Shown piece after piece: positions 12,674-15,182 of a stretch of DNA of 64,000 bases. This DNA comes from Fictibacillus enclensis. GTDB taxonomy: Bacteria; Bacillota; Bacilli; Bacillales; Fictibacillaceae. Below the pieces are notes generated by a model, which was given only the letters and a program-made list of their open reading frames with translations, did not search any database and had not been told where the DNA came from. The position numbers were made by a program, and so were the translations under genes. Where the stretch lies: NCBI RefSeq assembly GCF_001457035.1, contig NZ_KQ758617.1, forward strand, positions 992,001-1,056,000, in the 5' to 3' direction. The stretch's first letter is position 1. Each line of letters opens with the position of its first letter.

Positions 12674-13861
12674 TTGATCAGGAATCTTCAACGCGACGAA
12701 TTACTGGAATCGATTGAGCTTTCACAATATGCATTCAGGTATTCCTTAACCCCTGAGGAGGTTGAAAAACGTCTGTCAAATACTGACCCGATGACGATTT
12801 ATGGTGCTTTTGATCAAGAACAGAGATTGCTGGCAAAATATCATCTGCTGCCATTTGACGCCTATTTTTCTGGTAAAGCAGTAAAAATGGGTGGGTTGGC
12901 AGGGGTGGCAACCTGGCCGGAAAATAGAAGAACGGGACTGGTCAGAAAGCTGCTGATGCATGCTTTACAGACAATGAACCTATCTGGAATCTACCTTTCC
13001 ATGCTTCATCCGTTCTCGGTCTCTTTCTACCGGGGCTTTGGGTGGGAACTCACCTGTGATTACAAAATGTACAACATACATAAAAAGCAGTTCCCTCCTT
13101 TTGAAAGAGTGGAAGGCAAGGTAGTGCGGCATGGTTCTGAGGATTGGATGACGCTAAAGCCCATCTATGAGAAATTTGCAGCTCGATATAATGGCACGCT
13201 GAAACGCACCGAAGTCTGGTGGAAGAACAACATATTAAACAAAAAACAGATAGCGGTTTATAAAAACAGCAGAAGTCAGGCGCTCGGCTATATTGTTTAT
13301 TCAATTAAAGAAGATGAAATGGAAATTAAAGAATTTGTCTTTCTGGACAAAGAAGGGTTTACCGGGTTGTGGAACTTTATAGGTAACCATGATTCGATGA
13401 TTGAGAATGTGACCATTGTGGTTCCTCCTGACGATGAAATGGGGTATTTCTTGGGGGACCCGAAGATTCATCAAGAACAGCGCAGCTATTTTATGGGGCG
13501 AATTGTGAACGTTCTCGAAGCATTGAAGGATTACCCTTTTACGTGCAAGAGCAATGTAACCTTGTTTCTTCATGTAAACGACCCGGTTGCCGAGTGGAAT
13601 GCAGGATCGTATTCCATTTCTTTTCAGAAAGGAGAAAAATCGATTAACTTTTTCCCGGCGAAAACAGGAAATTCTTCCTGCACGGTGACACCTCAAAGAG
13701 GCATATCCCTAAACATACAGGAGCTGAGCGCTATTCTGTTCAATTATAAAACACCGGATCAGTTGTACCGCTTTGGGAGAATTTCGGGAAAAGACGAAGA
13801 CATCAAGCTGCTGCAATCCATTCTGCCGGCAGGGACCCCTTTTATATACGACTTTTTTTAA
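12674..13861 (+). CDS. Eis-like GNAT N-acetyltransferase
   Basis: 395-residue protein with the three-part layout of Eis-type acetyltransferases: an N-terminal GNAT domain with acetyl-CoA motif (GVATWPENRRTGLVRKLL, residues about 77-95), a second GNAT-like domain, and a C-terminal sterol-carrier-like domain (from about residue 300). It ends in a C-terminal Phe, as in Eis proteins, where the terminal carboxylate acts in catalysis (family knowledge). The substrate cannot be inferred. Start is TTG 12674, seven bases after AGGAGG (12661-12666); upstream in-frame codons lack a ribosome site. The downstream nucleotidyltransferase begins 13 bases after the stop, so the two are probably co-transcribed. 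Confidence 0.85.
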   Translation: MIRNLQRDELLESIELSQYAFRYSLTPEEVEKRLSNTDPMTIYGAFDQEQRLLAKYHLLPFDAYFSGKAVKMGGLAGVATWPENRRTGLVRKLLMHALQTMNLSGIYLSMLHPFSVSFYRGFGWELTCDYKMYNIHKKQFPPFERVEGKVVRHGSEDWMTLKPIYEKFAARYNGTLKRTEVWWKNNILNKKQIAVYKNSRSQALGYIVYSIKEDEMEIKEFVFLDKEGFTGLWNFIGNHDSMIENVTIVVPPDDEMGYFLGDPKIHQEQRSYFMGRIVNVLEALKDYPFTCKSNVTLFLHVNDPVAEWNAGSYSISFQKGEKSINFFPAKTGNSSCTVTPQRGISLNIQELSAILFNYKTPDQLYRFGRISGKDEDIKLLQSILPAGTPFIYDFF

Positions 13862-13874
13862 GGAGATTATTCCA

Positions 13875-14600
13875 ATGACAATAAGAGACAGTGCAGTCCA
13901 TGCTGCAAAGAAATTTATTGAGCAATATTTTCCTGTGGCTGAGGTTGTATTTTTAGCCGGAAGCATTGTGAGAGGTGAAGCAACTGAAAGCTCGGACTTG
14001 GACATTATCGTGTTTGACGGATCCCTGGACCATTCTTATCGAAAGTCATTTGTCGAATTCGGCTGGCCTATCGAAGTGTTTGTCCACAGCTTTCATACGT
14101 ATAAAGACTTCTTTAAGGAAAACAGGGACCGTGCTCGCCCCTCGCTTCCTCAAATGTGTGCAGAAGGTATCATCCTTAAGGATAACGGTCGGGCGGCATC
14201 CATTAAAAATGAAGCACTTGCCCTCTTGAAGAGAGGTCCGCTGCCTTGGAAATCAAAGGAAGTGGATTCGGCGCGGTATGAAATCACCAACTTGCTGGAT
14301 GATTTAGAAGGTTCAACCAACCCGGCAGAAGATTTATTTACAGTATCCCGGCTCGCTGCCAAAATTCATGAGTTTGTTCTCCGCGTCAACGGCTGCTGGA
14401 TTGGGGAAGGAAAATGGATTGTCAGGGCGCTCAAGGAATTTAATGAAGAGTTTGCGGAGTGCTTTGTCTCTATCTTTGATGAATATTACAAGACCCGCCA
14501 AAAGCACCGGGTGATCGGATTTGCCGACAATGTTCTGAAGCCGTATGGCGGGCGGCTGTTTGAAGGCTACTCGATCGGAAAAAGCAGACCAAAAGAGTAA
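13875..14600 (+). CDS. Nucleotidyltransferase-domain protein
   Basis: 241-residue soluble protein. The N-terminal domain has the Pol beta-type nucleotidyltransferase signature: GSIVRGEA followed by SSDLDIIV, giving the G-S...D-x-D metal-binding pattern at about residues 34-51. The C-terminal helical part resembles the second domain of aminoglycoside nucleotidyltransferases, but substrate is unknown. ATG 13875 follows AGGAGA, which overlaps the stop of the preceding acetyltransferase gene. Pairing with a GNAT gene suggests small-molecule modification, but that is inference. No HEPN partner gene is adjacent, so an MNT/HEPN toxin-antitoxin reading is not supported. Confidence 0.82.
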   Translation: MTIRDSAVHAAKKFIEQYFPVAEVVFLAGSIVRGEATESSDLDIIVFDGSLDHSYRKSFVEFGWPIEVFVHSFHTYKDFFKENRDRARPSLPQMCAEGIILKDNGRAASIKNEALALLKRGPLPWKSKEVDSARYEITNLLDDLEGSTNPAEDLFTVSRLAAKIHEFVLRVNGCWIGEGKWIVRALKEFNEEFAECFVSIFDEYYKTRQKHRVIGFADNVLKPYGGRLFEGYSIGKSRPKE

Positions 14601-14634
14601 CCCCTCCCAGCCGGGAAGGGTTACTCTTTTTCTG
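14591..14634. terminator. Terminator after the nucleotidyltransferase gene
   Basis: AAAAGAGTAACCC (14591-14603, including the stop codon) pairs with GGGTTACTCTTTT. The A-run on one side and T-run on the other make it work on both strands; it also faces the leftward ylbA transcript. Confidence 0.9.
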
Positions 14635-14661
14635 TTTGCATCCTTCGGTTGTACTTTGCTG

Positions 14662-14866
14662 CAAGAAAGCTTACTTAATCTCTTCAGTAACCGAGTTGCT
14701 GACAAGAAAGCTTATTTAATCTCTTCAGCAACCGAGTTGCTGGCAAGAAAGCATACTTAATCTCTTCAGCAACCGAGTTGCTGGCAGGAAAGCTTACTTA
14801 ATCTCTTCAGCAACCGAGTTGCTGGCAAGAAAGCTTACTTAATCTCTTCAGCAACCAAGTTAATGG
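14662..14866. repeat. Five-copy 41-bp tandem repeat overlapping the 3' end of ylbA
   Basis: Five head-to-tail 41-bp units begin at 14662, 14703, 14744, 14785 and 14826. The last unit includes the ylbA stop codon and its last coding triplets; the other four lie beyond the stop in non-coding DNA. Copies 1-4 share CGAGTTGCTG where the coding copy has CAAGTTAATG. This change creates a hairpin, CAGCAAC-CGA-GTTGCTG, perfect in copies 2-4 and with one changed base in copy 1. A degenerate fragment precedes copy 1. Single-base differences between copies show the array is not freshly made. There are no unique spacers, so it is not CRISPR. Confidence 0.92.
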
Positions 14867-15182
14867 TTTGAATACAGTGGTCTACGATGTTCTTTGGGAA
14901 CTCCTCGTCATATTCCACACCGTGCGGGTAATAGTGTTTTCCAAGGTAGGGGTCGCCAAGTTCAATTTTTGCATAGGGACGTTCAATCTCACCTTCGGCC
15001 ACGATGCAAGGGAAGCGCAAGTAGTAAACGTCTCCATTTGTCATGTCTTCAAATTTATAATCGTATGTAATTCTTTCATAATCCCATTGTCCAGCCCGGA
15101 CGATTCCGTGGTTGTTCATGATATGCTCCAGGATTGAAAATTGGACAACTTGCCCTTTTAGGCCGCTTTCTTCAAATACCAT
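14835..15182 (-). CDS. ylbA: YugN-like family protein, probably YlbA
   Basis: 115-residue soluble protein with conserved aromatic blocks GQWDYERITYDYKF and YLGKHYYPHGVEYDEE. I recognise these as YugN-like family features, and position and strand after ctaG match ylbA. Function is unknown; no catalytic motif or membrane segment is visible. The ATG at 15182 follows GGGAGG by seven bases on the minus strand; the in-frame TTG at 15197 overlaps that ribosome site and is rejected. The last coding bases lie inside copy 5 of a 41-bp tandem repeat that continues past the stop. Confidence 0.75.
   Translation of the reverse strand: MVFEESGLKGQVVQFSILEHIMNNHGIVRAGQWDYERITYDYKFEDMTNGDVYYLRFPCIVAEGEIERPYAKIELGDPYLGKHYYPHGVEYDEEFPKNIVDHCIQTINLVAEEIK

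Follow-up and report, generated by a model that had tools for sequence, protein, structure and literature searches.

A clade-specific 41-bp minisatellite, probably slippage-born and mostly neutral, in the predicted 3' UTR of Fictibacillus ylbA

In Fictibacillus enclensis, the window analysed here (the whole stretch of 64,000 nucleotides) contains ylbA, a small uncharacterised gene on the minus strand (14835..15182) of which the 115-amino-acid product belongs to the YugN-like family, as judged from its open reading frame and a match to PF08868 (62 bits, E 6e-17). An SD-like GGGAGG precedes the ATG at 15182 and the stop codon is read at 14837-14835. According to the list of open reading frames and the domain matches, ylbA is flanked by a divergent CBS-domain gene and by a convergent nucleotidyltransferase-domain gene (13773..14600, plus strand, start codon uncertain), which ends at a terminator shared by the two convergent genes. 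This intrinsic terminator (14591..14630) has an 18-bp stem with a mean pair probability of 0.97 in the predicted ensemble; the terminator scan places it on the minus strand, a T-run is read on the plus strand, and it is probably bidirectional. The same genome encodes a relative of ylbA (33% identical, G000:C2:498659-498910, locus L010), and a counterpart of this gene was found in all six other genomes of the genus that were searched. In some Pseudalkalibacillus-type loci (L067, L069 and L103, from 2501) the ylbA frame is open for about 730 bases compared to about 350, which suggests that the protein may be longer or fused there.

Between the ylbA stop codon and the terminator lies one tandem array, detected by TRF at 14656-14861 with period 41, 5.0 copies, 93% matches, no indels and a score of 363. 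By this position the array belongs to the predicted 3' UTR; the terminator is not replaced by it but lies intact just beyond its end. The coding end of ylbA is the first copy; this founder consists of the last 24 bases of the gene (14838..14861, minus strand, AACTTGGTTGCTGAAGAGATTAAG) and the stop. Beyond the stop follow four complete 41-bp units on the same strand, each with the stop-codon region: unit 1 (14797..14837), which begins at the ylbA stop codon itself, unit 2 (14756..14796), unit 3 (14715..14755), a TATG variant, and unit 4 (14674..14714), which reads GTTACTG and has an imperfect dyad. A partial last unit (14655..14673, minus strand, TAAGCTTTCTTGCAGCAAA), with a similar ending present in F. 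fluitans, is taken to represent the flank that originally followed the segment on its 3' side, an ancestry that we infer. The initial annotation had described five 41-bp copies and a gene end, stop included, that was copied beyond ylbA while the protein stayed unchanged; all of this holds, the copies lying past a retained stop codon. A clean fit of the coding copy to the unit starts only at about CAAC (1-2 mismatches per 24 bases here, 1-4 across the three species that carry the array), and the bases upstream of CAAC, counted as substituted in the initial annotation, are more likely to have been at the border of the duplicated segment or beyond it.

A whole-genome search, one of the checks proposed initially, placed the 205-bp array at a single locus in the 4.5-Mb genome. 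Neither a match in plasmid or phage collections nor a second genomic copy was found, so there is no sign of a mobile repeat and this candidate was ruled out. In a wider TRF survey of a 400-kb genome sample plus the window (464 kb in all), one other array scored above 300, and arrays of this strength are thus uncommon but not unique. The assembly consists of 10 contigs and short arrays can be miscounted, which raises the question of an assembly artefact; however, the four full non-coding units are all distinct in sequence and the array is also found in two independently assembled related species, so that it is no isolated assembly error. We consider an artefact largely refuted and its remaining probability negligible.

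These two species, F. solisalsi and F. fluitans, are among the 61 ylbA loci fetched for comparison. At the same site and with the same period, the 41-bp unit is present in six copies in F. fluitans, five in the window genome and two in F. solisalsi, compared to one copy only in F. terranigra, FJAT-27399, F. macauensis and the remaining Fictibacillus loci. Since TRF missed the two-copy array of F. solisalsi, the gene end was also searched for directly downstream of all 61 loci, which recovered it with 26/27 matches in F. solisalsi and 25/27 in F. fluitans. No array was found at the other 59 fetched loci, either by TRF or by this direct search (threshold at least 20/27), the best score outside the clade being 19/27 at a distance of 242 bases (locus L057). 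Arrays that had arisen repeatedly at ylbA, in genera besides Fictibacillus, would be an argument for a function; they were likewise looked for and do not occur among the fetched loci. In the order sample, a junction pattern of the dyad plus AAGA was found in 2 of 397 genomes, both of this clade, and was absent from the other 395. Locus identity to the window is 92.8% for F. solisalsi and about 86% for F. fluitans, compared to about 70% for the array-less F. terranigra and FJAT-27399. As the carriers, all soil bacteria, are the closest by locus identity and the next relatives have one copy, the best-fitting and simplest history would be that the array arose once, in the common ancestor of the three species, and changed in copy number afterwards. 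The initial annotation had called for a copy-number comparison in related strains and regarded random copy number among them, together with the lack of a transcript reaching the array, as refuting a role; the comparison made here is one between species, and its outcome (6, 5 and 2 against 1) comes close to that variability. A literature search returned nothing on a ylbA repeat locus in Fictibacillus. Upstream of ylbA in Pseudalkalibacillus decolorationis (L074:1880-2228) there is a 159-bp repeat in 2.2 copies, the consensus of which is unlike the 41-bp array.

Within the array, the dyad CAGCAAC-NNN-GTTGCTG occurs in perfect form at 14808..14824, at a unit junction, and again at 14767..14783 and 14726..14742, and with one mismatch at 14685..14701. 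As initially reported, it is thus perfect in three copies, and the coding copy lacks it. The genome-wide search found no perfect dyad elsewhere and, besides the array's own imperfect copy, two dyads with a single mismatch. A perfect 17-bp dyad present in several regularly spaced copies might suggest binding sites of a DNA-binding protein, but those two single-mismatch sites are all that exists outside the array, and the position is one between convergent gene ends and not at a promoter. The absence of other perfect genomic sites led us to rule out a regulator-binding dyad, and protein-binding sites in general are very improbable here.

Taken in isolation, each 17-nt dyad is predicted to fold (-7.4 kcal/mol), unlike the coding version. 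For the 3' UTR as a whole, the predicted ensemble gives the local hairpins a mean pair probability of only 0.0-0.34 and the dyad arms pair across copies into one long imperfect stem, at variance with the four stacked hairpins envisaged initially. A role in termination, also raised there, is not supported either: the 18-bp-stem terminator lies separately past the array and forms regardless of it, and where the array is absent in Fictibacillus relatives, a terminator-like hairpin mostly follows the ylbA stop at a short distance. An Rfam scan gave no match at the array, whereby a described RNA family was discarded; its only matches in the window are a ylbH leader RNA (RF00516, 20924-21048, 87.5 bits) and a T-box leader (RF00230, 63026-63253, 126 bits). 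Variable columns make up 1 of 14 in the hairpin arms against 14 of 27 in the rest of the unit (hypergeometric p 0.005, in a post hoc comparison of units that are not independent), which may be a weak hint of constraint or selection and could also result from homogenisation of the units. The 3-base loop varies (TCG, CTG, CCT, CTT), and no compensatory base changes were found in the dyad, the arms being nearly invariant, with change in a single column and double changes absent, in a comparison of low power.

These data bear on the alternative of a 3' UTR structure under selection, in which the long imperfect stem alters ylbA mRNA decay, with the REP-type palindromes reported to stabilise other mRNAs (PMC2267715) as precedent. 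The strong predicted fold (z -7.8 over the whole stretch, to which the terminator and the repetition as such contribute), the conserved arms around a variable loop and the retention of the array in each of the three species, the loci of which are 86-93% identical, agree with such a role. Arguments against it are provided by the lack of compensatory pair changes, by a copy number ranging from 2 to 6, by the presence of one perfect dyad only in F. solisalsi, by a strong terminator stem that is there anyway and by relatives that do without any array. A selected role in mRNA decay is a weak possibility, which we consider unlikely.

Units are more alike within species than between them, with a mean difference of 2.3 compared to 7.8 (label permutation p 0.0005), which indicates that the array was homogenised or, by lineage-specific re-expansion, renewed, two processes that three species cannot separate. 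Bases that mark a species recur from unit to unit, in some cases in the coding copy as well: ATT in the window genome, a codon that the coding copy has in common with each of the four non-coding units, and ATCCA in F. solisalsi. The TATG variant unit is common to the window genome and F. fluitans, which hints weakly at an older unit shared by the two. Exchange between non-coding units and the coding copy might even feed changes into the C-terminal end of YlbA, although we hold this to be rather doubtful; F. solisalsi has a C-terminal Lys-to-Gln codon change (ATCCAG) and its non-coding unit reads ATCCAA.

Taken together, the array is most readily explained as a clade-specific, slippage-born and mostly neutral minisatellite in the ylbA 3' UTR, a reading to which we assign a probability of roughly three in four; a neutral minisatellite had been the fallback of the initial annotation. 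The array, where it lies, how it is distributed and the likeness of units within a species are observed, and the slippage mechanism and the near-neutrality are what we infer. In the ancestor of the window species, F. solisalsi and F. fluitans, a 41-bp segment comprising the last ylbA codons, the stop and a short 3' flank would have been tandemly duplicated, probably when replication slipped between two near-repeats, CCATCAA in the gene and CCAGCAA in its flank; in the inferred single-copy sequence their distance is exactly 41 bp. Since at least one pair of such 7-base near-repeats occurs at some spacing in 41% of shuffles, these slippage end-points are plausible, not proven. The junction would join CAG(CAA) of the 3' UTR to the coding CAAC, and the resulting CAG|CAAC, being complementary to the GTTGCTG of the gene's last codons, would have created the 17-bp palindrome at every junction and none in the coding copy. 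The initial annotation had instead attributed the hairpin to shared substitutions in a variant copy from which the array spread, in line with the difference between CATTAAC in the coding copy and CAGCAAC in the units. Such substitutions are not needed if the CAGCAAC arm is the expected junction of a 41-bp duplication, and the partial last unit already ends in CAGCAAA in both the window genome and F. fluitans; spread from a variant copy therefore seems improbable. When the collapsed array was compared with outgroups, the F. fluitans flank was supported (alignment scores 30-34) and the window's own flank, which has further changes before the terminator, was not (score 0). If the duplication junction made the palindrome, the 3' flank of a single-copy close relative would read CCAGCAAA, whereas a flank without CCAGCAAA would favour a variant copy. 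Tandem repeats with palindromes readily undergo additional slippage and unequal exchange, by which copy number would have drifted to 6, 5 and 2 and units would have been homogenised per lineage. Since the stop codon is kept and the array precedes the terminator, neither protein nor termination is disturbed, and the change would be tolerated.

The array consists of head-to-tail 41-bp units (5.0 copies), within the 10-100 bp range of bacterial minisatellites or VNTRs, and its copy number differs between related genomes (6, 5, 2 and 1, with one genome per species). In Yersinia pestis, ten VNTR loci overlap stop codons (PMC3689786), and there too the units hold the gene's stop, and a change in copy number alters the 3' flank and hardly affects the protein; these loci vary among strains of one species, whereas variation of the ylbA array is seen among species only, and the ylbA unit carries a palindrome probably made at its junction. 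With REP/BIME and other intergenic palindromic families the array shares palindromes after stop codons that can fold in mRNA, but REP/BIME are dispersed through the genome in many copies and the ylbA array is tandem at a single locus. Mycobacterial interspersed repetitive units are tandem, intergenic, about 40-100 bp long and can overlap the stop codons of neighbouring genes; they have tandem, stop-overlapping units in common with the ylbA array, but form a dispersed family at many loci. A stop-spanning minisatellite is thus of a kind already known in bacteria, and the ylbA array, most likely near-neutral, opens no new biological system. It does provide a small, phylogenetically bracketed case of minisatellite birth across a stop codon, in which near-repeats 41 bp apart, a palindrome-making junction and subsequent drift and homogenisation can be proposed as a sequence of events over three species, and it might be of use as a typing marker of the Fictibacillus clade concerned. 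Among other repeats, TRF reported a 15-bp repeat at 544-574 of the window (2.1 copies, 100% match) and, in the same genome, a stronger second array of a 122-bp repeat (3.3 copies, 96% matches; L129:7525-8021, G000:C1:1107525-1108021), which occupies the gap between apparent ftsY and ylxM-ffh genes.
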